DNA of 64,000 nt from Mycolicibacterium pulveris (GTDB taxonomy: Bacteria; Actinomycetota; Actinomycetes; Mycobacteriales; Mycobacteriaceae). Within the stretch, counting starts at the first letter, position 1, and every line of letters starts with the position of its first letter. The notes below the pieces were generated by a model, which did no database searches, was not told the origin of the DNA, and saw only the letters and a list, made by a program, of their open reading frames with translations. This document shows, in pieces, positions 14,652 through 27,422 of this stretch. Made by a program: the position numbers and the translations under genes. The stretch lies in assembly GCF_010725725.1 (NCBI RefSeq), contig NZ_AP022599.1:2232001-2296000 (forward strand), written 5' to 3'.

Positions 14652-15791
14652 ATGCCGGTCGACAGACTGTTACCCACCGAAGAAGCGCACGACCTGATCG
14701 CGCTGACCCGCGACATCGCCGACAAGGTGCTCGACCCGATCGTCGACGAGCACGAGAAGGCGGAGACCTACCCCGAAGGGGTGTTCGCCCAACTGGGCGA
14801 GGCCGGGTTGCTGAGCCTGCCGCAGCCCGAGGAGTGGGGCGGCGGCGGCCAGCCCTACGAGGTCTACCTGCAGGTGCTCGAGGAGATCGCGGCGCGGTGG
14901 GCGGCGGTGGCGGTCGCGGTGAGCGTGCACAGCCTCTCGTCGCATCCGTTGTTGGTGTTCGGTACCGAGGAGCAGAAGCAGCGGTGGCTGCCGCAGATGT
15001 TGTCGGGGGAGCAGATCGGCGCCTACAGCCTCTCGGAGCCCCAGGCCGGGTCGGACGCCGCGGCGTTGCGGTGCGCGGCCACCAGGACCGACGGCGGATA
15101 CATCCTCAACGGGGCCAAATCGTGGATCACCCACGGTGGGCGGGCCGACTTCTACACGCTGTTCGCCCGCACCGGCGACGGCTCGCGCGGGATCTCATGT
15201 TTTCTGGTGCCCGGTGACCTGCCGGGGCTGAGCTTCGGCAAGCCCGAGGAGAAGATGGGCCTGCACGCGGTCCCGACGACGTCGGCGTTCTACGACAACG
15301 CCCGCATCGACGACGACCGTCTCATCGGTGACGAAGGCCAGGGCCTGCAGATCGCGTTCTCGGCACTGGATTCCGGGCGGCTGGGCATCGCCGCCGTCGC
15401 GACGGGGTTGGCGCAGGCCGCCCTCGACGAAGCCGTGAAGTACGCGAACGAGCGAACCACGTTCGGCCGCAAGATCATCGACCACCAGGGCCTGGGGTTC
15501 CTGCTTGCCGACATGGCTGCCGCAGTGGCCAGCGCCCGCGCCACCTACCTGGATGCCGCGCGGCGTCGCGATCTCAACCAGCCCTACTCCCAGCAGGCCA
15601 GCGTCGCGAAGCTGGTCGCCACCGACGCCGCGATGAAGGTGACCACCGACGCGGTGCAAGTGTTCGGCGGCGTCGGCTACACGCGCGACTTCCGGGTGGA
15701 GCGCTACATGCGCGAGGCCAAGATCACCCAGATCTTCGAGGGCACCAACCAGATTCAGCGTCTGGTCATCGCGCGCGGGCTCACCTCCTAG
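14652..15791 (+). CDS. Acyl-CoA dehydrogenase (short/medium-chain type)
   Basis: This 379-residue FadE protein has standard length. It shows the signature ACAD1-type segment YSLSEPQAGSDAAALRC, the substrate loop GAKSWITHGG, and the catalytic glutamate region IFEGTNQIQRLV. It should oxidise acyl-CoA to enoyl-CoA, passing electrons to ETF. It starts 11 bases after pntB on the same strand and is probably cotranscribed, possibly linking fatty-acid oxidation with NADPH balance. Confidence 0.9.
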   Translation: MPVDRLLPTEEAHDLIALTRDIADKVLDPIVDEHEKAETYPEGVFAQLGEAGLLSLPQPEEWGGGGQPYEVYLQVLEEIAARWAAVAVAVSVHSLSSHPLLVFGTEEQKQRWLPQMLSGEQIGAYSLSEPQAGSDAAALRCAATRTDGGYILNGAKSWITHGGRADFYTLFARTGDGSRGISCFLVPGDLPGLSFGKPEEKMGLHAVPTTSAFYDNARIDDDRLIGDEGQGLQIAFSALDSGRLGIAAVATGLAQAALDEAVKYANERTTFGRKIIDHQGLGFLLADMAAAVASARATYLDAARRRDLNQPYSQQASVAKLVATDAAMKVTTDAVQVFGGVGYTRDFRVERYMREAKITQIFEGTNQIQRLVIARGLTS

Positions 15792-15799
15792 CGCGCGAA

Positions 15800-15849
15800 C
15801 AGACGCCAATACCCCCAAACCCGGCTCGAAAAGGGGGTGTTCACGTCTG
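15800..15849. terminator. Hairpin between convergent fadE and sensor kinase
   Basis: Outer arms CAGACG/CGTCTG and inner arms ACCCCC/GGGGGT pair around a loop containing AAACCCGGCTCGAAAA. The hairpin lies at the convergence of two genes and overlaps the end of the kinase gene. Confidence 0.55.
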
Positions 15850-17049
15850 CTCGCCGGAAGAGAGGGTCGGCTCCGGCGGCGAGGTGGCCGTCACTCGCGT
15901 TCCGCCACCCGGCGACGAGGTGATCCGCATCGACCCGCCCATCGCGTCGAAGCGGGCCAGCAGCGAGCCGATGCCGATATGCCCGTCGGCCACGTACTTC
16001 TCCACGACGTCGGGATCGAACCCCTTGCCGTCGTCGGCAACGGTCAGCACGATCCGGTCGCCTCGACGCGACAGCCCGACCCGCACCGTCTTCGCGCCGG
16101 CGTGCTTGTGCACGTTGGCCAGCAGTTCGCGGGCGGCCCGGTACAACAGCTGCTCGGACTCCGGCTTGCCGACATCCTCGAGATCGGCCTGCACGGTGTA
16201 AGGGCCGCGAGTCTCGAACTGCCGCACCAGTTCTCGCACCGCCGGCGTCAACCCCAGCTGGGCCAGCACCTGCGGATGCAGCTGGGTCACGGTGAGGCGC
16301 AACTCCGTCGCCGTCTGCTGCAGCGCGGCGTGCACCGAGTCCAGCGCCGCGTCGTCGAGGCGTTCCCTGGCCACGTCGAGATCCAGCCGCGCCGCCAGCA
16401 GCGTCTGCAGCGGCCCGTCGTGCAGATGCTCGGCGACTTCGCGGTTGTGCCGCTCGTCGGCGTGCATCGCTTCCGAGATCAGTTGGCGGCGCGTCTCCTG
16501 CAACTTGTTGACCCGCGCCTGCCTACGCACCAGCACCAGACACAGCCCGGCGGCGGCGACCGCGGACCAGAGCAGGAACCCGACGTGGAGGTAGACGATT
16601 TCGGGCAGGCCGACGGTGTCGTCGCGCTTGGAGTAGACGATCCACGCGGCCAGATATCCCAGCGCCGTGCTGGTCCCCAACACCGCGGTCAGCATCGGGC
16701 GGTCCTGGAACGCCACGACGATCGGCAGCACGAAGAACACCGGCAACAACGCCGCCGTGGCGCCGCCGGACACCAGGCACAACACCACGACCACCAGAAC
16801 GTCCACCGCCGTCGACGACCACCCCGCCCAGCGCGGTACCGGCCCGCTCAGCACCACCCCCAGCCACACCAGCGCGGCGCCTGCGTAGATCCCGAGCACC
16901 ACCAGGTAGACACCGGGCAGCCAGTGGTCGACTTCCCAGAGCCACACCAGCAGTGCGATCAGCCCGATCAGCGGCAGGCGCAGCACGGCGGTGACACGGA
17001 CCGGCTCCGCCGTGAAGAAGTCCGCGCCGCGGTCCAGCAGCCGTCGCAC
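15841..17049 (-). CDS. NarL-type membrane sensor histidine kinase
   Basis: The 402-residue protein has an N-terminal block of about five or six membrane helices (residues about 20-180), then a HisKA_3 dimerisation domain with phospho-acceptor His in EVAEHLHDGPLQTLL. The ATPase domain follows, with N box ELLANVHKHA and G box VADDGKGFDP. It has no extracellular sensor domain, so the signal is likely in the membrane. It starts one base after the response regulator stop, forming a two-gene unit. Confidence 0.9.
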   Translation of the reverse strand: MRRLLDRGADFFTAEPVRVTAVLRLPLIGLIALLVWLWEVDHWLPGVYLVVLGIYAGAALVWLGVVLSGPVPRWAGWSSTAVDVLVVVVLCLVSGGATAALLPVFFVLPIVVAFQDRPMLTAVLGTSTALGYLAAWIVYSKRDDTVGLPEIVYLHVGFLLWSAVAAAGLCLVLVRRQARVNKLQETRRQLISEAMHADERHNREVAEHLHDGPLQTLLAARLDLDVARERLDDAALDSVHAALQQTATELRLTVTQLHPQVLAQLGLTPAVRELVRQFETRGPYTVQADLEDVGKPESEQLLYRAARELLANVHKHAGAKTVRVGLSRRGDRIVLTVADDGKGFDPDVVEKYVADGHIGIGSLLARFDAMGGSMRITSSPGGGTRVTATSPPEPTLSSGEQT

Positions 17050-17050
17050 G

Positions 17051-17692
17051 TCAGTCCAACAACTTGCGTCGCATCGCCTCCGCCACAGCGGCGGCCCGGT
17101 CGTTCACGCCGAGCTTGTCGTAGAGCCGCTGCACGTGGGTCTTCACCGTCGACGGCGCCAAGAACAGCTCCTTGGCCATGGCGGGAATGCTGCTGCCGGC
17201 GGCGATGAGCCTGAGCACATCGCGTTCGCGGGGGCTCAGCACCGGGCCGTCGTTGTCGGCGCGCCTGCGGATCTCGCCTGCCAGCCCGGCGGCCAGGCTG
17301 GGCGCCACCACGTCGCGCCCGTTGGCGCAGTCGAGGACGGCCTGCACCAGCTCCGACCGCGTGGACTCCTTGGGCAAGAAGCCGGCCGCCCCGTTCTGCA
17401 GCGCCTGGTAGACGATCGCCGACTCGTCGTGTGCCGACACCAGCAGCACCCGGGTGGGCAGCTGGTCGCGTAGCACCGCGGCGGCGACCTCGGCGCCGTC
17501 CATATTCGGCATCCGGTAGTCCAACAGGGCGACTTGCGGCTGGTGCGCGCGGATGGCCGCGAGTGCCATCGCGCCGTCGTCGGCTTCGGCCACGACTTCG
17601 ATCGAGCCACTTGATACGAGCGCGCGGACGACGCCGTCGCGAAACATCGGGTGGTCATCGCCCACCACCACGCGCACCTTCTCGCTCGTCAT
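17051..17692 (-). CDS. NarL/LuxR-family response regulator
   Basis: The 213-residue protein has a receiver domain (about residues 5-120, phospho-acceptor Asp in VALLDYRMPNMDG) and a C-terminal LuxR HTH (about 148-210, with LSPRERDVLRLIAAG and STVKTHVQRLYDKLG). I chose the ATG at 17692 because it gives MTSEKVRVVVGDDHPM, the usual start of the receiver fold. The gene begins 44 bases after the aminotransferase stop on the same strand. It may have its own promoter or be a distal part of the sugar operon. Confidence 0.9.
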   Translation of the reverse strand: MTSEKVRVVVGDDHPMFRDGVVRALVSSGSIEVVAEADDGAMALAAIRAHQPQVALLDYRMPNMDGAEVAAAVLRDQLPTRVLLVSAHDESAIVYQALQNGAAGFLPKESTRSELVQAVLDCANGRDVVAPSLAAGLAGEIRRRADNDGPVLSPRERDVLRLIAAGSSIPAMAKELFLAPSTVKTHVQRLYDKLGVNDRAAAVAEAMRRKLLD

Positions 17693-17736
17693 GACGCAAA
17701 GAATTCGCACGCCGAGGCACGTTTGCTCGGCAAATC

Positions 17737-19056
17737 TCACAACAGTTCTCGCGCCACTTTCCGGAACGCCGCGACAATGTCGTCGATGTCGGCTTCGGCG
17801 TAGGTCGAACCGATCGAGAGCAGCGCACCGCGCGACCGCAGGTCGTCGCAGCCCGGCAGCGCGCCGGCGGCGTACTCGTAGTCAGCGGCAAAAGCGTTGG
17901 CCGGATGAGTCCACGGTGCGCCGTCGCGGCTGTTGGACCGCTTGTGAACCAGGCTGGGGATGTTGCAATACCAGTGCAGGCCCCACTCCTGCATCGTCAC
18001 GACGGCAAGGCTTCCTGACGGCCCTGAGATCCCCTCGGCCCGAAGGGCATCGATGAAGCGCCGACACGTCGGCTCGTCGGGAAGAGTGAAGATCAGGACG
18101 AGCCCAGAGTCACCCGACGGGTCGATGATGTCGCGGAACTCAAGGCCGTCGGTCCCTTCCAAGGCGCGGCGGATACGCCATTTCGCGTCCCGCATCGACG
18201 ACACGATGTCGGGGATCTTGCGCAGCTGCGCCAACCCCAGCGCACCCGCCAGCTCCGACATCCGCGCTCCGATGCCCCACAGTTGACAGCTCTCATCGGA
18301 CGTGTCGATTCGGCCGTCGTCGTCTCGGGCGTAGCCGAGATCGTGCATGGCGACCGCACGCCGGAACAGATCGTCACGCTGTGTGACGACGACACCCCCC
18401 TCCCCCGACGTGATGGTCTTGTTGAGTTGCATGCTGAAAATGCCGATGTCGCCGAACGTTCCAACGGCTCGGCCATATTGGCTGGCTCCGGCGGCCTGAG
18501 CGCAATCCTCGATCAACGCCACACCGCGGGACCGACAAATCCCGGAGATCCTGGTCAGATCGCCTGGTGCGCCGCTGATGTGCACGCACAGCACCGCTCG
18601 GGTCCGCGGGCCGATCTTGCGTTCCAGATCGTCCGGGTTTATGCAGAAGGTTTCGTCTATGTCGACAAGACGCGGAATCGCCCCGGCGCGGACCACCGCC
18701 GAAATGCAGCTGACCCACAACAGCCCCGGCACCAAGACTTCATCGCCGGGGCCGACACCGAGCGCGCCCATCACGATGGACAACGCGGCGGTGCCCGAAG
18801 AGACGCCGAGTGCATGTCGGTGACCGAACTTCTCGCACCATTCCCGTTCGAAGGTGTCGACCATGTGCTGCAGGTCTGGACCGTAGAAGCGAAACGGGCT
18901 CTGTGCCTTGACTACTCGATTGATCAGCTCAAGCTCTTCGGTACCGATGCGGTTTCCGCCGGGAAACTCCCACGGCAGCGGCCGCGACCGTACTGGTGGG
19001 CCGCCGTCGATCGCGAGGGCGCTCGCCTCGTCATGGGCGGTGGTGGTCGATGTCAT
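17737..19056 (-). CDS. DegT/DnrJ/EryC1/StrS-family sugar aminotransferase
   Basis: The 439-residue protein is a PLP-dependent fold-type I enzyme that normally aminates keto-sugars or keto-cyclitols. The start region ALAIDGGPPVR resembles the AHBA-synthase/StsC subgroup. GVSSGTAAL binds the PLP phosphate, EDCAQAAGA holds the ring-contacting Asp, and the Schiff-base lysine is in SMQLNKTITSGEGG. The ATG at 19056 has GGAGAG upstream. It is the last gene of the four-gene sugar operon, 34 bases after the GMC gene. I infer that it aminates the ketone made by the GMC enzyme. Confidence 0.88.
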   Translation of the reverse strand: MTSTTTAHDEASALAIDGGPPVRSRPLPWEFPGGNRIGTEELELINRVVKAQSPFRFYGPDLQHMVDTFEREWCEKFGHRHALGVSSGTAALSIVMGALGVGPGDEVLVPGLLWVSCISAVVRAGAIPRLVDIDETFCINPDDLERKIGPRTRAVLCVHISGAPGDLTRISGICRSRGVALIEDCAQAAGASQYGRAVGTFGDIGIFSMQLNKTITSGEGGVVVTQRDDLFRRAVAMHDLGYARDDDGRIDTSDESCQLWGIGARMSELAGALGLAQLRKIPDIVSSMRDAKWRIRRALEGTDGLEFRDIIDPSGDSGLVLIFTLPDEPTCRRFIDALRAEGISGPSGSLAVVTMQEWGLHWYCNIPSLVHKRSNSRDGAPWTHPANAFAADYEYAAGALPGCDDLRSRGALLSIGSTYAEADIDDIVAAFRKVARELL

Positions 19057-19090
19057 GTGCTCTCCGTTGTGCGCATACCGCTGTCTGGGT

Positions 19091-20563
19091 TCAGCATTGG
19101 TGCCCGAGTGACTCGGCCACCCCGTCCGCATGACGCAAAGACCATGCGGTGATCGTCAAGTAGGGGTTCGCCGAGCCCTGCGAGGGAAACGGGCTTGCGT
19201 CGGCCGCGGAGAGGTTTTCGACGCGCCAGAACCGGCCGCGGCAATCCGTGACACCGGATTCGGCATCCTCACCCATCCGGAGACCGCCGATTTCGTGCAG
19301 GGCACCGCCGGGCGGATTGACCTGGGTCCTGCCCGGTGTCGCCCCGAGCGCGATCGCGGCCTGCCCCAAGGCGTGTTCCATGGCGGCCAACCGCTTTTCG
19401 TCCTGTTCGCTGCGCGTGTACAGGACCCGGCAGTTCAGGATGCCGCCGTACCGGGAGTCGCCGCGGTCGGTGAGTACCACGCGGTTGTCTTTCTCGACAG
19501 TCCCGACACCGAAAGCCGCCAGCATCATGTGGGTACCTGCGGGGCTGCAGTTCACCCACATCGTCGAATTGCTCTGGTGATACCAGGTGCCCTCGAAGGG
19601 GCCCTGGATCTGTAGGTGAAACGCCCGCTCACGGGTGGCGTCGACCATCACGTTCATGTTGGCGTCCGTGCGGGCCGCGGGTAACTCCGCGGTGCTCTGC
19701 ACGAACAGGTGGTCGTTGAGATACCGGCCGACCAGTGGGCTCACCGCGTCAAGGCCGGAGGTCAGCGCAAGCCGTGCCGATTGCACCGCCCCACCTGCGA
19801 GGACCACGTGGCGTGGCCGCAGCGTCAGGTGCTCGCCGCTGCGTCGATCGAGCACCTCGACCCCGTCGATGCGCTCGCCATCGAACGACATCCGCACCGC
19901 AATTGTCTGAGCGGCCAGCGAAACCGGTGCGCCGGAGGCGAAGTCGCCCAGATGCGGGCTGGTCAACAGGCGCGCCGCGGCGCTGTCGAACCCGGCACCC
20001 GGGCGACGGTCCGAACCGGTGTCGATCCCCACGGGTGTCGGACGTGCGGGCAATCCGGCCGCGGTCAGCTGCTCGATCGCGGTGCGCTGCCCGGCGGATT
20101 GATAAAACGGCGGTCGACGCTCATTGCCGCTCACCTTCATCAGCGATTCGGCCCGGTCGTAATAGTGCGACATGTCCGCGGCGTCGATCGGCCAGTCGTC
20201 GAAGTCCCACGGCTTGTAGCGCGGCGCCGTACCGGTCCAGAACAGGGTGCGCCCACCGACCACAAGCCAGGCAGGGATCGGCTCCGCGTGCCCCCCGGCG
20301 CTGACCCAGGTCGTCGGGACGGTCGTCGAGTCGCTGAGCTTGGTCGCCAGGCCGGTGCTGTCGGCCAGCGACGCGTTGCCGATGTGCGAGATCAGCTTCA
20401 GGGGGCCGGCCTCCAGAATCACCACCCGTAATCCACGCTCTGCCAAGCCAAGAGCCGTCGTCACGCCGGAGGTTCCGCTGCCGATGACCAGACAGTCGAT
20501 CGCGTCGGAGTCACGCGCGATATCCGCGATGCGACTTTCGAACACCGTGTCGAGGCCGTTCAC
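19091..20563 (-). CDS. GMC-family FAD oxidoreductase, putative sugar dehydrogenase
   Basis: The 490-residue flavoprotein has an ADP-binding Rossmann motif (GSGTSG, residues 28-33, then VVILEAG). Its C-terminal GMC domain has the catalytic His in ALHEIGGLRMG and the conserved Asn in SANPYLTITAW. No signal peptide is visible, so it is likely cytoplasmic. The family includes glucose/glucoside-3-dehydrogenase and pyranose 2-oxidase, which turn a sugar hydroxyl into a ketone; that role fits between a disaccharide synthase and a keto-sugar aminotransferase. The GTG start overlaps the MFS stop (GTGA), so translation is coupled. An alternative is an alcohol or choline-type substrate. Confidence 0.85.
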   Translation of the reverse strand: MNGLDTVFESRIADIARDSDAIDCLVIGSGTSGVTTALGLAERGLRVVILEAGPLKLISHIGNASLADSTGLATKLSDSTTVPTTWVSAGGHAEPIPAWLVVGGRTLFWTGTAPRYKPWDFDDWPIDAADMSHYYDRAESLMKVSGNERRPPFYQSAGQRTAIEQLTAAGLPARPTPVGIDTGSDRRPGAGFDSAAARLLTSPHLGDFASGAPVSLAAQTIAVRMSFDGERIDGVEVLDRRSGEHLTLRPRHVVLAGGAVQSARLALTSGLDAVSPLVGRYLNDHLFVQSTAELPAARTDANMNVMVDATRERAFHLQIQGPFEGTWYHQSNSTMWVNCSPAGTHMMLAAFGVGTVEKDNRVVLTDRGDSRYGGILNCRVLYTRSEQDEKRLAAMEHALGQAAIALGATPGRTQVNPPGGALHEIGGLRMGEDAESGVTDCRGRFWRVENLSAADASPFPSQGSANPYLTITAWSLRHADGVAESLGHQC

Positions 20564-23280
20564 GACATCGGCACCTCGACGGGTGTGACCGCGCTGCGCC
20601 GGCTCTCCCAATACGCGCCGATCTCTTCCAAGCTGCGGCCCTTGGTTTCGGGAAGCGCACGCATGAGATACAGCGCACCGACGATGCTGATCGCCGCATA
20701 CGCGACCAGTGTCACGGTGAGACCTGGGAAGTCAAGCAGCAGCGGGAACGTCAGCGTGAAGACGATCGCGAAAACGCTTCGCATGCCGTGCGACAGGCTG
20801 GCCGCCGGCCCGCGGATCGCCTGCGGGTAGAGCTCGGAGATCACGATTTCACCCACCACACCGAGCGTCAGCGCGAAAGCACCCACGAACACCGCCAGGC
20901 TCGCGACCTGGCCCCACTGCGCAACGCCGGACGTGAACGTGGTCAGCCCCGCCATGACAAGCAGGCATGCGGCCATCACGAACAAGCCGACGACGACCAT
21001 CGGTTTACGCCCGACCCGGTCGATGATGGTGAGGGAGATGACGGTCATGACGAGGAACACGACACCCAGGCCGAGTGTCGCCGCGAAAGACACCGTGGTG
21101 TCGTTGAGCCCGATCTCCTTGAGAATCGTCGGCGCATAGAACAGCACCATGTCCCAACCGGAGAACACGATCAGGAACATCACGGCCAGCCCCACCAGGA
21201 TGGCCGGCCGATAGGTCGGCTGCCACAGGCGCACACGACCGCCGGGCGCGGATTTGCTTTCCGCGTCCCGGACGCGTTTCAGATCGGTGATGGCCGCCAA
21301 CTCGGCATCGGCGGCCGGACCATACAGCCGCACAAGCGAGCGTCGCGCGGCGCTGAGTTGCCCGGCGGCCGCCAGCCAGCGCGGCGACTCGGGCAACGTC
21401 AGCAGCGCCACCCCATAGATGGCGCTGGGCACCGCAAGAAATCCGAACATGGTGCGCCACCCCGCGGGCTGATCCTCCAGCCCCAAGCCGACGCAGTAGG
21501 CCAGGATGGCGCCGAGCCCGTAGGCCACGGCTTCGAAAGACAGCAACCGGCCGCGGATCGCCGCCGGCGCCACTTCGGCCACGTAGAGTCCGGCGGTCGG
21601 CGAGGTGATGCCGATCGCGATACCCGCGGCGGTCCGGGCGATCACCAACCACCCGAACGACGGGGCGAGCGCCGCGCCGAACGCGCTGGTGACAAACAGT
21701 GCCGCCATGGACATCAGCACGTAACGGCGACCGAACCGGTCTGACAGCGGCCCAGCCAGAAACGAGCCCGCCGCCAGGCCGGCCACCAACACACTGGCCA
21801 AGATTCCCTGCTGAAGAGGCCCGAGGCGCCAATCCTCTTCGATGAGCACCAGCGTGACGGCGGTGATCGCGAAGCTGTAGCCGGTGAGCAGTCCACCCAT
21901 GGTGGCCACCCCGGTCGCCATGTAGTGGACGAGGCGGCTGTCGGTGATCCGTGCGGCCCGCTCGGTGAAGTGGCGGTCGATCGCCACAAGTGAGAGTCCG
22001 TTGGTCTCCGGCATGGCCCGGCGGAAGACCAGCCAGCCCAGCAGCGCCACGCCGGAGAAGAGCACCAGCAGCAGCGGCCCACCGAACTCCCTGCGCAACA
22101 GCAGGCCGGCGGGCGAGGCCAGGCTGTCGAACAGCCAATGTGAGCCGACGACGATGCTCATCGCCAGGCCCCGCACCCGCAGGGGCACCATCTCGGCCGC
22201 CGCGACCCAGGGAATCGGGCCAAGCCCGACGCCGAAGGAGGCCACGAACAGGTACAGGCCCGCGGCAGAGACGACGTAGGCGTGGGTGAAGCTCGCGTTG
22301 AGGCCCGCTCCGACCGCCATCGTGGCCAGCCCTACCGCCACTCCGGTGAGGCTGAGGAGCAGCAGGGGGCGGCGGCCGACGCGATCGATCAGCGCGACGG
22401 CGACGAGCGCCGCGAGCACTCCGAGCGCCGCCAGCGACAGGCCCGCCCAGTCCTGCCCGCCGAAGTGCAGCGATTCGTACAGCACGGCCAGACTCGACGT
22501 CGAGTAGTAGATCATCGCGTTGATGCCGACGAACTGCTGAACGAAGAACAGCCCGATCGCGAGGAGCACAGCACCGCGACCCGCGAGCGAGAACACCTCG
22601 GCCAGGTCGTCGCCGCGATCTTCGCGCGGCGTGCGGGCGATCGCTTCGACCTCCTCGGTGGAACTGTCCGCATCTATCCGCTTGAGCACCGCTACGGCCG
22701 ACTGCCGATCTTCCTTCAGCGCCAACCACACTGGCGATTCGACCAGGACCAACGCCAGCCCGCTCAGCAGCAGCGCCGGAATCACACCGCCGGCCAGAAG
22801 GTATCGCCAGCCATCGGGCCGGTCGGCGAACACCTCGTTGCCGACGTAGGCCGCGAGGATGCCGATCGTGATCATCAGCTGAAACACGCACAGCAGGGAA
22901 CCTCGGCGGCGTGCCGGTGCGATCTCGGCGATATACAGGGGTGCCGCAACGGAAATCGCTCCCACCCCGAGGCCGACGACCAGCCGGCCGGCCAGCAGAA
23001 CCAGGCTGGACGGCGCGATCGCGCTGACGAAAGCACCCAGCGTGAACAAGGCCGTCGTCGCCATGATCACGTCGCGCCGTCCGACCACGTCGGCGATCCG
23101 GCCGCCGGCCAGCGCACCCACCAACGCGCCGAGGAGCGTCGCGGTGCTCAGCAGCAGCTGGCCGTCGGACGTCCCCGTCCACGAGAACTCGGCATTCTGC
23201 AACGCGCCGGCCGCCACCCCGGTTTCATAGCCGAACAGCAGACCGCCGAGTGAGGCGATGCCGACCAGGACGTTGCGCAC
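20560..23280 (-). CDS. Tandem (double-length) MFS sugar porter
   Basis: This 906-residue protein contains two complete sugar-porter MFS units in one chain. Unit 1 spans about residues 1-430 and unit 2 about 453-885. Each has the loop 2-3 motif (GRIADVVGRRD; GPLSDRFGRRY), PESP-type motif (VESPVWLALK; PESPRWLAAAG), DRVGRRP/DRVGRKP and PETxG (PETNGLSL; PETKGRSLEEI). Unit 1 keeps the sugar-binding QQFVGINAMIYY around residue 247, but the matching place in unit 2 reads IVFSGWDMVLFY. The GTG at 23280 is two bases after the synthase gene's stop. It should move a sugar or the operon's product across the membrane; direction is unknown. Confidence 0.88.
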   Translation of the reverse strand: MRNVLVGIASLGGLLFGYETGVAAGALQNAEFSWTGTSDGQLLLSTATLLGALVGALAGGRIADVVGRRDVIMATTALFTLGAFVSAIAPSSLVLLAGRLVVGLGVGAISVAAPLYIAEIAPARRRGSLLCVFQLMITIGILAAYVGNEVFADRPDGWRYLLAGGVIPALLLSGLALVLVESPVWLALKEDRQSAVAVLKRIDADSSTEEVEAIARTPREDRGDDLAEVFSLAGRGAVLLAIGLFFVQQFVGINAMIYYSTSSLAVLYESLHFGGQDWAGLSLAALGVLAALVAVALIDRVGRRPLLLLSLTGVAVGLATMAVGAGLNASFTHAYVVSAAGLYLFVASFGVGLGPIPWVAAAEMVPLRVRGLAMSIVVGSHWLFDSLASPAGLLLRREFGGPLLLVLFSGVALLGWLVFRRAMPETNGLSLVAIDRHFTERAARITDSRLVHYMATGVATMGGLLTGYSFAITAVTLVLIEEDWRLGPLQQGILASVLVAGLAAGSFLAGPLSDRFGRRYVLMSMAALFVTSAFGAALAPSFGWLVIARTAAGIAIGITSPTAGLYVAEVAPAAIRGRLLSFEAVAYGLGAILAYCVGLGLEDQPAGWRTMFGFLAVPSAIYGVALLTLPESPRWLAAAGQLSAARRSLVRLYGPAADAELAAITDLKRVRDAESKSAPGGRVRLWQPTYRPAILVGLAVMFLIVFSGWDMVLFYAPTILKEIGLNDTTVSFAATLGLGVVFLVMTVISLTIIDRVGRKPMVVVGLFVMAACLLVMAGLTTFTSGVAQWGQVASLAVFVGAFALTLGVVGEIVISELYPQAIRGPAASLSHGMRSVFAIVFTLTFPLLLDFPGLTVTLVAYAAISIVGALYLMRALPETKGRSLEEIGAYWESRRSAVTPVEVPMS

Positions 23281-23282
23281 CC

Positions 23283-25463
23283 CTACACCGCCGGCGTAAC
23301 GGCACGGTTCTTGAAATGCTCGACGCCCTCGATGATTCCGGCCGCATACCCGGTGGAGGCGAAGTAGGCGTGCGCCAACTCGGGCAAGTTCGCCATGTCG
23401 TCGGTGAAGTTCTGCACGACGATGGCTTGCGGCAATGTGCGCAGCATCTCCGTGTCGTTGGCCGAGTCGCCCGAGACGAACACCTGGTCCTCGCTCAAGC
23501 CGTACCGGCGGCGTACGTGGATCACCGCCGCACCTTTGGAGGCGCGGACGGGCAGGATGTCCAGATAGCGGCCGTGGCTGTGGGTGACTGTGCACTGCAG
23601 CCCTTCGGCTGCGAACTTCTCTTGCAGCCGCCGACGGAGGCCCTTGTCGCCGTCGGTCAGGTAGCTGACCTTGAACCTACGTTGCTCGAGCTCCGCCTGA
23701 GGGTGAACCCCCGGCTCGGTGCCCAGGATTTCGTTCACGGCATCGGGATCCCAGTTGACGTCGATGATCTTCGCCCACTCGTCGTCACCGACGTAGGTGG
23801 TGGAATCGCCTGTCAAGTAGTAGATTTCGGCGCCGACCGATGTGATCATCACCTCGGGGCGCGGCGAGCCTTCTTGCTCGAGCACCATCATCGCGCTGTG
23901 GAAACTCCGGCCGGAGGCTATACCGAAACCGACGCCGTTCTGACGCGCCAGCCAGCGGCAGAACTGAGCGTGCGCGGCCTCGTCGCCGACCAGGGTGTTG
24001 TCGATATCGGTGATGAGCAGTTGCGCCGGTCTCGCCGGCTCCGTGCTCGGTGTCGAGAGAATGGACCGCATGAGGCCGTGGTAGCGCTTGGCGTGGGCCT
24101 TCCAGTCGTAGGCTTTCACCGCAGCCGCCCCGGAGGCGGCGTACTTGTGCCACAGCGCAGGGCTTCTCAGGATGTCCAATGCGGCGTCGGCGATCGACCG
24201 GGGCACCGTGGCATCGACCAGCACGCCGTTACCGCAGACTTCGACGATGTCGTTCGGGCCGCCCGAGTCGGTCGCGATGACGGGTATGCCGACCGCGGCC
24301 GCCTCCAACAGCGTCAGTCCGAACGGTTCGTTGAACGCCGGGTTGACGAAGATGCCGCGACGTTCCCGGGCATAGGCGTAGAGTCCCGGAAGGTCTTCGG
24401 GCCGGTGGCCCTTGGGGTAGGCCACCTTGCCGTACAGGTCGTAGCGGTCGATCGTCTTGAGAATCCTGGTCAGGTTGTCGGCAAGCTCGGGCTCGAGATC
24501 GTCGATGTCCGTGCGGCTGCCCGCGATGAGTACCAGGTTCGCCCGGTTCTGCAGTTCGGGGCTTTCGCCGAATGCCTCGACCATCGCGATCAGATTCTTC
24601 TTCGTCACCGGGCGCGCGATCGCAAGGATCGGCGGCTTGTCGGGATCGTCGAGAAAGCGGTTGATCATGCGGTCCACCGCTATCGATGACCGAGCGCTGG
24701 TGAACATGGTCAGATCGCTGCCGGGCGGGACCACACGGATCTTGCCCGGCGCGTAGCTGTCATAGCCCGCGTATTGAATTTCGGCTTCGTCGCGAGAGCT
24801 CGCGATCACCAAGGCCGCATCGGCCAGTGCGCGTTCCTCAGCCGCCAAGCGGTGCTCGAGGCTTTCGGCGGCATCGGTCATCGCTTCACCGCTGCTTCGT
24901 GTGAACGCGTCGAGTTTCACCCGGCCGAGGGAGTGTGAGGTGAAGACGAACGGAATGCCAAGGCGCTCACGCACAATGGCGGCCACCACGCCGGCATCCG
25001 CATAGTGTGCGTGCAGGATGTCCGGACGTTTTGGCTGGTTCTCGATCCATTCGATCACCGCGTCGGCGAACGACGGAACCTCGCGCCAGAGTTCCTCTTT
25101 GGGAAGATAGCCGGGCTGCGCGGTGGGGAACCGAACGATTTCGATCTTGGGGGTGACGGTCTCGCGGGTCTGCCAGTATTCGTCGCCGAGGAATCCGCGA
25201 AATGCGCGGGTGGCGATGGTGATTCGCTCGACCGTCGGGTCCTGTTCTGACGCCCCGACCAGTCCCATGAGGTATCGGATGTGGCCACCGGTGTCGGCGG
25301 TCACGCCGTACTCGACGTTGCGGCCGCGCAACGCCCCTTGTAACGCCAGGTGGAGAACGAACGACGGACGGGCGGACTCAGCTGAGGCCGCTACCCGCCC
25401 GACAGACCGCCGGGACCGCGAGGCGCTGACGCGATATGGGTGAGGTTGCCCGAACAAGATCAA
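23283..25463 (-). CDS. Bidomain sucrose-phosphate synthase / phosphatase
   Basis: The 726-residue protein joins a GT-B glycosyltransferase family 4 domain (about residues 35-470) to a HAD-type sucrose-phosphatase domain (about 482-715). Synthase motifs: DTGG at 57-60, HAHYADAG at 151-158, TSHSLGR at 175-181, PPGSD at 246-250, RPVTKKN at 284-290, and the E-x7-E segment NEPFGLTLLE. Phosphatase motifs: DIDNT (486-490) with both aspartates, SGRS, RASKG and GDSAND. It should make sucrose-6-phosphate from a nucleotide-glucose and fructose-6-phosphate and then remove the phosphate. Mannosylfructose or another disaccharide remains possible. It is the first gene of the operon; the N-terminal 30 residues may be over-called. 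Confidence 0.88.
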   Translation of the reverse strand: MILFGQPHPYRVSASRSRRSVGRVAASAESARPSFVLHLALQGALRGRNVEYGVTADTGGHIRYLMGLVGASEQDPTVERITIATRAFRGFLGDEYWQTRETVTPKIEIVRFPTAQPGYLPKEELWREVPSFADAVIEWIENQPKRPDILHAHYADAGVVAAIVRERLGIPFVFTSHSLGRVKLDAFTRSSGEAMTDAAESLEHRLAAEERALADAALVIASSRDEAEIQYAGYDSYAPGKIRVVPPGSDLTMFTSARSSIAVDRMINRFLDDPDKPPILAIARPVTKKNLIAMVEAFGESPELQNRANLVLIAGSRTDIDDLEPELADNLTRILKTIDRYDLYGKVAYPKGHRPEDLPGLYAYARERRGIFVNPAFNEPFGLTLLEAAAVGIPVIATDSGGPNDIVEVCGNGVLVDATVPRSIADAALDILRSPALWHKYAASGAAAVKAYDWKAHAKRYHGLMRSILSTPSTEPARPAQLLITDIDNTLVGDEAAHAQFCRWLARQNGVGFGIASGRSFHSAMMVLEQEGSPRPEVMITSVGAEIYYLTGDSTTYVGDDEWAKIIDVNWDPDAVNEILGTEPGVHPQAELEQRRFKVSYLTDGDKGLRRRLQEKFAAEGLQCTVTHSHGRYLDILPVRASKGAAVIHVRRRYGLSEDQVFVSGDSANDTEMLRTLPQAIVVQNFTDDMANLPELAHAYFASTGYAAGIIEGVEHFKNRAVTPAV

Positions 25464-25777
25464 TCCCCCTGGACGGGAATGTACCCCAGCCGTTCGGCGC
25501 GCGAGATGATTCCCACGGAATATTTACTTTTACGTCAATACAGCCCCTGACCACCGCCTAGGGGATTGTCCTCGGCCCGGATGACCAGTCCGATCCGCCG
25601 TCTCGATTCGCTCCGGGCTTGGCCGCCGGTTCCACCGATTGGGGGACAACCGGTTCATCCGATGTATCCCCCGGCCGCCCGACATACAACGCGTTCGCCG
25701 TGCAGCACTCTTGAGTCATCGCCGGGAACGACCGGCGGACAGACCGAAAAGCAACACGAACACAGGAGATTTCGAAA
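25464..25777. promoter_or_regulatory. Divergent intergenic region upstream of sugar operon
   Basis: This 314-base gap separates the sugar operon from the secreted-peptide gene. On the minus strand TTGACG (25538-25533) precedes an A/T-rich run (TAAAAGTAAATATTCC), an unusual composition here and a candidate promoter for the operon. AACCGGTT at 25648-25655 is a perfect 8-base palindrome flanked by GGGGGA/TCCCCC arms. No gene is supported within the gap. Confidence 0.4.
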
Positions 25778-26029
25778 ATGAACACCAACACCACTCGCCG
25801 CTTCGCCCGCTACTTCGCGCTGCCGGTCATCTCGGCGGGGATCATCGCCGGGGCGCTCGGCTTCGCCGGTGCCGCCAGCGCGGGGACCTACTCCCAGGAT
25901 CACACCCCGCGGCCGGGCATCGTCGCCACGCCGACGCACACCGCGCATCCGGCCCCGGAGGCCCTCCCGGGCTCGCATCACCACCGCACCGAGCACATCA
26001 TGAACCTGCAGCCCGGCTACCACCCCTGA
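25778..26029 (+). CDS. Small His-rich secreted peptide
   Basis: The 83-residue product has a clear Sec signal peptide: basic start (RRFARYF), hydrophobic core and a cleavage site after GAASA near residue 35. The mature 48 residues hold eight histidines, including a SHHHRTEH cluster, and several prolines, with no cysteines. The ATG follows AGGAGA at good spacing. A metal-binding role is possible but not shown. It is divergent from the sugar operon and ends at a strong hairpin. I do not recognise a named family. Confidence 0.75.
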   Translation: MNTNTTRRFARYFALPVISAGIIAGALGFAGAASAGTYSQDHTPRPGIVATPTHTAHPAPEALPGSHHHRTEHIMNLQPGYHP

Positions 26030-26040
26030 GCCGAACGACA

Positions 26041-26071
26041 AAAGCGGGGCACCACTGAGGTGCCCCGCTTT
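26041..26071. terminator. Bidirectional intrinsic terminator
   Basis: Perfect 13-base arms (AAAGCGGGGCACC and complement) enclose the loop ACTGA, with A/T bases at both ends. It lies between the convergent secreted-peptide gene and ahpD. Confidence 0.9.
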
Positions 26072-26099
26072 CGTCGTCTTGTGCGGTGTCCTGTGCGAT

Positions 26100-26633
26100 C
26101 TAGACGGCGGTCAGCACGTCGGCCGTCTGCAGCGCCTGTGCGACGCCGGAGACGATCGACGCCAGCCGGATCGCCTCGAAGATCACGCTGCGCGAGACGT
26201 CCGCGTCGCGCAGCGTCTTCTCGTGCGCGGCCACGCAGTGCCCGCAGCCGTTGATCGCCGAGACCGCCAGCGACCACAGCTCGAAGTCCTCCTTGGCGAC
26301 CCCGGGGTTGCCGATGATGTTCATCCGCAGACCCGCGCGCAGGTCGTCGTAGGCGCCGTCGAGCTGCCCCTTGGTGCGGTAGAACACGTTGTTCATCCCC
26401 ATGATGGCCGCGGCGCCGAGTGCCGCGTTGTAGGCCTCTTCGCTGAGGATGTCCAGCGCGTCCTCGGCGACCTCACGAATCAGCCGCTCGGACTTGGTCG
26501 CCGCGGCCGTCGCCACCAGCGCACCCCACAGCTGTTGTTCGGACAGCTCGGTGGTCCGCACGATGCTGCCGAGGTTGAGCTTGAGGTCCTTGGCGTACTC
26601 GGGAAGCGCTTCCCGGATGTTCTCGATGCTCAC
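26100..26633 (-). CDS. ahpD: Alkyl hydroperoxidase AhpD
   Basis: The 177-residue protein carries the redox motif CGHC at residues 130-133 followed by His137 (AAHE), as in M. tuberculosis AhpD. It is a small helical thiol protein that reduces AhpC, taking electrons from the Lpd/dihydrolipoamide system. It starts three bases after the ahpC stop, so the two are one operon. Confidence 0.95.
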
Positions 26634-26636
26634 GAA

Positions 26637-27224
26637 TCACACCGCCTCGGCCAGCAGCTCGGCCGGCTTGATGGTCGGGTCGCCCTTCTTCCAGTTGCAG
26701 GCGCACAGCTCGTCGGACTGCAGCGCGTCGAGCACGCGCAGCACCTCGTCGACGTTGCGGCCCACCGAGCCAGCGGTCACCGACACGAACTGGATCTCGT
26801 TGTTGGGGTCGACGATGAACGTGGCCCGGTCAGCGACGCCGTCCGCGTTGAGCACACCGGTGGCCAGGCTCAGCTCGCGGTTGAGGTCCGATGCCATCGG
26901 GAACGGCAGCTTCTTGAGGTCCTCGTGCTGGGCACGCCACTGGAAGTGCACGAACTCGTTGTCCACCGACACGCCGATCACCTTGGCGTCGCGGTCCTCG
27001 AACTCGTCGTTGAGCTTGCCGAACGCCGCGATCTCCGTCGGGCACACGAAGGTGAAGTCCTTCGGCCAGAAGAAGATGATCCGCCACTTGCCTTCGTGAT
27101 CGTCGCTGGTCACGCGGGTGAAGTAGTCGTCGGGCTGCTTGGCATCTACCTGGGAGAGATCACCACCGATAACCGCCGCCATGTCGTAACGGGGGAACTG
27201 GTCACCGATCGTCAGCAATGCCAT
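26637..27224 (-). CDS. ahpC: Alkyl hydroperoxide reductase AhpC (peroxiredoxin)
   Basis: The 195-residue peroxiredoxin has the peroxidatic cysteine C61 in FTFVCPTEI and the C-terminal resolving cysteines in ELCACNWKKGD. It reduces peroxides and peroxynitrite. I chose the ATG at 27224 (MALLTIGDQFP), which gives the length of M. tuberculosis AhpC, over the frame's extension to 27239. No oxyR gene is divergent to it, unlike in M. tuberculosis complex and M. leprae. Confidence 0.95.
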   Translation of the reverse strand: MALLTIGDQFPRYDMAAVIGGDLSQVDAKQPDDYFTRVTSDDHEGKWRIIFFWPKDFTFVCPTEIAAFGKLNDEFEDRDAKVIGVSVDNEFVHFQWRAQHEDLKKLPFPMASDLNRELSLATGVLNADGVADRATFIVDPNNEIQFVSVTAGSVGRNVDEVLRVLDALQSDELCACNWKKGDPTIKPAELLAEAV

Positions 27225-27422
27225 GGGTTTACACACCATCCTTGGTCTAGTTTGGAGTCAGTCCAGATTACCTATTCGATTCTGTTGGCTTCTCCGACCA
27301 AAGACAAGGGCTACGAACGTGATTGTGGCCACACTCACACCTGAAATAGGTTCGGTTTCAGCCGATTTCGGTGTGATTGCCGACGACGGCGGCTTCGCCC
27401 GGCTGTTGCTACCGTCGAAAGG

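Follow-up and report, generated by a model that had tools for sequence, protein, structure and literature searches.

Four closely spaced genes on the minus strand of a Mycolicibacterium pulveris contig (NZ_AP022599.1, of which the 64,000 nucleotides from 2,232,001 to 2,296,000, here called the window, were analyzed) raise the question of whether they form a single pathway and what that pathway makes. A preliminary description of the sequence had read them as a four-gene operon with intact catalytic motifs that might make and export an amino-disaccharide. The operon was borne out by our analysis: four minus-strand ORFs between 17737 and 25463 carry the Pfam domains of a sucrose-phosphate synthase/phosphatase (SPS), an MFS sugar porter, a GMC flavoprotein, and a DegT-type aminotransferase (table 1), and their sequence-derived junctions are a 2-base gap from the SPS stop to the GTG start of the MFS gene, a 4-base overlap (GTGA) between the MFS and GMC genes, and a 34-base gap from GMC to DegT. 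The motifs were likewise intact, with key residues found in the GMC, DegT, GT4, and HAD parts; the roles of the DegT, GT, and HAD motifs are general knowledge of these families. We used 23280, 20563, and 19056 as the working starts of the MFS, GMC, and DegT genes; the start of the SPS gene is uncertain and probably lies near 25370. A scan for a sigma-70 promoter above the SPS gene found none, and two overlapping terminator-like sites were detected on the minus strand at 25463-25480, with shuffled sequences averaging 0.6.

Table 1. Coordinates in the window of the inserted block, its four genes, and two flanking genes
Feature	Coordinates	Strand	Basis
NarL-like response regulator; ancestral flank, outside the cassette	17051..17692	-	Pfam and genus genomes
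Inserted block	17686..25622	.	Flank alignment stops at 17685 and restarts at 25623
DegT/DnrJ/EryC1/StrS aminotransferase, 439 aa, KdnA-like	17737..19056	-	DegT_DnrJ_EryC1 (Pfam)
GMC flavoprotein, 490 aa, candidate sugar 3-oxidase	19091..20563	-	GMC_oxred_N/C (Pfam)
Tandem (fused) MFS sugar porter, 906 aa	20560..23280	-	Two Sugar_tr stretches (Pfam)
Bifunctional sucrose-phosphate synthase/sucrose-phosphatase (GT4 + HAD-IIB)	23283..25463	-	Maximal ORF
Small 83-aa ORF beside AhpD/AhpC; ancestral flank	25778..26029	+	No Pfam match

The origin of the genes was addressed by comparing the flanks with those of related genomes. In the nearest relative (L074), the stretches aligning to 15551-17685 and 25623-27096 are 44 bp apart, which leaves a block of approximately 7.9 kb in the window, and the same break, representing an empty site, was observed in seven of the eight relatives compared (six loci and L078); among the eight, L077 aligned uncleanly on the small-ORF side. 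The order AhpC-AhpD-small ORF-regulator-kinase was seen to continue without the block in 6 of the 29 relatives' fetched loci, which are approximately 3.6 kb long and mostly do not span both flanks, and of 118 genomes of the genus, the window's own included, 83 carry the downstream response regulator. No direct or inverted repeat of at least 9 bp was found between 17641-17760 and 25481-25680. The AhpC and AhpD genes (26100-27239) were considered as peroxide-removing partners of an H2O2-making oxidase and rejected, because they are ancestral flank genes that predate the insertion. Among 297 sampled genomes of the genus, an SPS orthologue (E <= 1e-40) and a DegT orthologue (E <= 1e-60) were each found in one, and GMC matches in 32, all but the window's own being just 31-35% identical; of 345 genomes sampled from the class, one contained DegT. 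Further mycobacterial relatives in protein and contig collections came from XJ662, M. pulveris, and NPDC051804, together with BK086 in the sister GMC clade, and plasmid searches found no match to the DegT or GMC proteins. Horizontal gain of the block is a simpler explanation than many losses.

A GMC-family profile search of species genomes yielded 39 loci. At 38 of them a DegT gene is no more than 600 bp away from the GMC gene, with both on the same strand at 34, and the remaining locus (L059) begins at a contig end, so its missing DegT is uninformative; two sugar porters were counted near the GMC gene at 27 loci. This proximity, together with the presence of the four window genes in one insertion, argues against chance, and we concluded that the gene set is real, transferred, and conserved. 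Additional evidence came from the order of Stappia taiwanensis, where DegT was found in 8 of 249 genomes, three already known from GMC loci. Two of the five remaining neighborhoods hold the same GMC type, and three (L111:4250-6191, L112:10069-12013, and L113:4316-6257) hold a different GMC with DegT and two sugar porters; here one porter gene separates the alternative GMC from DegT, and an ORF of approximately 105 aa, without a Pfam match in L111 and L113, stands just before the GMC gene. The alternative GMCs are 70-80% identical among themselves and 22-24% identical to the window GMC, and the closest PDB entry of each is an FAD-glucose dehydrogenase. The retention of a sugar-type oxidoreductase beside DegT, even though the protein itself has been swapped, is the best support for an oxidize-then-aminate scheme. 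The core is DegT, a sugar-type GMC, and porters, and the earlier suggestion that the GMC enzyme would oxidize a sugar for DegT to aminate is supported by the adjacency, by the swap, and by the fold of the GMC protein.

On the basis of its AF2 model (pLDDT 90), whose best fits are glycoside 3-oxidases and pyranose oxidases, the GMC protein is a candidate sugar 3-oxidase, with C2 or C6 also possible as the oxidized position. In overall fold and catalytic His-Asn pair it belongs with the POx/CGOx group and resembles the pyranose oxidases and the glycoside 3- and C-glycoside oxidases (PsG3Ox, 7qf8/7qva; 7dve; DaCGO1, 8qve), although it is only 22-25% identical to the glycoside oxidases. Its His423 and Asn466 align to His440 and Asn484 of PsG3Ox, which are given as the catalytic residues in PMC10646112; PsG3Ox is described there as catabolic, whereas the window GMC is partnered with an aminotransferase. 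Entry 7dve has the molecule name '6'''-hydroxyparomomycin C oxidase' and a title that refers to a C-glycoside oxidase, and the name could mislead annotation.

The DegT protein scored 242.1 bits against a family cut-off of 19.8 and contains the PLP lysine (K213) and D184; its AF2 model has a pLDDT of 80.5 and is weak near 212-218 and 258-268. The best PDB match was KdnA (5k8b), an 8-amino-Kdo transaminase, by sequence, and Fic25 (8gyh) and KdnA by fold; these top matches are approximately 30% identical, however, and none of the other three window genes belongs to the Kdo pathway of KdnA. A second comparison is offered by the kanosamine genes ntdABC of Bacillus subtilis, in which NtdC is the dehydrogenase and NtdB the HAD-IIB phosphatase; the NAD enzyme acts on glucose-6-phosphate, whereas the window has an FAD GMC and SPS. 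NtdB (3gyg) is a weak match to the phosphatase half of SPS. NtdA is described as the DegT transaminase of that pathway (PMC6522883). The pathway resembles the window genes in that a glucose hydroxyl is oxidized, a DegT enzyme aminates, and a HAD-IIB phosphatase is involved. An NtdA-type assignment of the window DegT was rejected, since it is far closer to KdnA (267 bits) than to NtdA (114 bits).

The SPS protein comprises S6PP and GT4 domains by Pfam, with the active-site motifs present (GT E-x7-E; HAD DxDxT, K, and GDSxND). The nearest solved structures are 2r60, which we take to be H. orenii SPS, for the GT half, and the sucrose-phosphatase 1s2o for the HAD half, and both domains and the key motifs are common to bacterial SPS-SPP fusions of this kind; many proteobacterial SPS-HAD fusions, approximately 56-61% identical, were among the best 120 matches. 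The window protein falls under the NCBIfam equivalog cut-offs of TIGR02472 (459.6 vs. 576 bits) and TIGR02471 (197.9 vs. 209.75 bits), and each of the five homologues scanned likewise scores too low for all the sucrose-phosphate models listed for it. Because the curated cut-offs were missed by the protein and by these five homologues too, we named it SPS-like. The two halves of the MFS porter are 30% identical to each other, and the separate porters of L060 and L065 (two each) align to the fused protein in one collinear stretch; no clean mapping of the halves onto two separate porters of other loci was found.

We proposed, with a confidence that falls a little short of an even chance, that the acquired operon makes sucrose, oxidizes a ring hydroxyl, aminates the resulting keto-sugar, and exports an amino-disaccharide. 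By homology, SPS/SPP would convert UDP-glucose and fructose-6-phosphate to sucrose-6-phosphate and then to free sucrose. The FAD-dependent GMC would act on the glucosyl unit and oxidize one of its ring hydroxyls, most likely that at C3 to judge from the fold neighbors of the enzyme; DegT, as a member of its family, would transaminate the keto-sugar, probably from glutamate; and the double MFS porter may then export the amino-disaccharide, export being the predicted direction. For the SPS-linked clade, amino-sucrose is a plausible product and our best guess, both the product and the aminated position being predictions. Searches of open-licence papers found none on this pathway, judged by title and start of abstract, and those with 'deoxysucrose' or 'sucrosamine' included none on such a pathway; for the comparison with trehalosamine-type antibiotics drawn in the preliminary description, the search found no paper.

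The preliminary description had placed SPS at the head of the pathway, and as a defining step it did not survive the genome counts, which gave the very outcome that the description had named as refuting its pathway idea, GMC and DegT homologues without SPS in most genomes. Only one of the 39 loci (L031) contains SPS, in a gene order identical to that of the window, and a whole-genome search at E <= 1e-40 found SPS in 1 of 35 core-bearing genomes and none in the other 34, many of the genomes being draft MAGs; loci L045, L059, L062, and L066 were left out of this search, the L062 assembly (JAIUOX) being that of L040. None was seen in the five genomes with the Stappia-order kind of DegT, in a search run without a positive control. 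The L031 contig, whose MAG bears the name 'Alphaproteobacteria', which may be wrong, has all four genes at 68-73% identity and reflects either cross-phylum transfer or a misbinned contig. The scarcity of SPS favors an alternative in which the substrate of the core is a free monosaccharide, with glucose, for example, being converted to kanosamine or 6-amino-glucose, and SPS in this clade only supplies or traps the sugar or joins glucose to it. The similarity of the alternative GMCs to glucose dehydrogenase points the same way, as do glucose-handling genes in some fetched loci (glucokinase in 8, an OprB porin in 7, and aldose epimerase in 3 of the 39), but these neighbors are confined to a few lineages. 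The objection to SPS is also softened by the GMC tree of 154 rows, because the SPS-linked and SPS-lacking rows fall on opposite sides of it: a clade of 40 rows contains all 6 SPS-linked rows, and the 34 SPS-lacking rows are among the other 114 (SH-aLRT 100). The tree has no row for L053, which yielded no ORF that could be used, or for L059 and L066, which were set aside beforehand, and 2 of 120 listed proteins (<430 residues) were dropped. Most rows are unlabelled; the SPS-linked labels came from DNA for L031 and the window, from the species name for P0003 (M. pulveris has both genes), and from pairing equal-sized contigs for P0007, P0026, and P0038, and the SPS-lacking label of L062 was taken via the assembly in common with L040. 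SPS is an add-on that, to judge from the GMC sequences, joined one GMC clade.

The SPS-linked GMCs also differ from their sister clade in the residues that align with the substrate loop of PsG3Ox, a stretch that reads WY[HR][QP]S[NH]ST[ML]W in the six SPS-linked rows and many unlabelled neighbors and WY[ST]PYHATVW in 12 of the 14 sister-clade rows of alignment A1; in a 13-row subclade on the SPS-linked side (P0021-P0025, P0027-P0032, P0034, and P0035) the stretch is eroded. This difference, though confounded with ancestry, would fit different substrates, and together with the one-sided position of the SPS-linked rows it speaks against amination of a monosaccharide, an alternative that we regard as unlikely but deserving of serious consideration.

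The disaccharide pathway also has to be weighed against catabolism, in which the porter would import a sugar or amino sugar for GMC and DegT to degrade. Sugar_tr porters, and OprB porins in Gram-negatives, are typically uptake proteins, and the window has the former and some loci the latter. We consider this improbable, since the block has a sugar-making SPS/SPP and is without a glycosidase, lyase, or isomerase, and an A-T-C NRPS at some loci points to biosynthesis. This NRPS was found at 5 of the 39 loci, four of Reyranella type and that of Mycobacterium BK086, at 45% identity (L034:4792-7899 and L068:15634-18834 being examples); matches of 25% at L058 and L065 were excluded from the count, and L037 has a C-A fragment where its contig ends. 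The NRPS suggests that the amine may sometimes be acylated with an amino acid. That SPS makes sucrose as an osmolyte, with GMC and DegT sharing the operon by chance as a separate pathway, is the least probable reading, for although sucrose is plausible as a solute in Alphaproteobacteria, in many of which close SPS relatives occur (among the best 120 matches), L031 has the same gene order and SPS is probably linked in divergent GMC lineages.

Taken together, we tentatively propose, as a reading that is rather more likely to fail than to hold, that Alphaproteobacteria, Melainabacteria-type bacteria, and mycobacteria have a widespread, undescribed route in which GMC and DegT would aminate free sugars without nucleotide or phosphate activation, the SPS of one clade leading to exported amino-sucrose and the A-T-C NRPS elsewhere adding an amino acid to the amine. 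If so, the genes would provide a simple signature for a class of amino-sugar products in bacteria that are not recognized as their producers, and the direct oxidase-transaminase chemistry, which needs no activated sugar, could be applied to the synthesis of aminated disaccharides.
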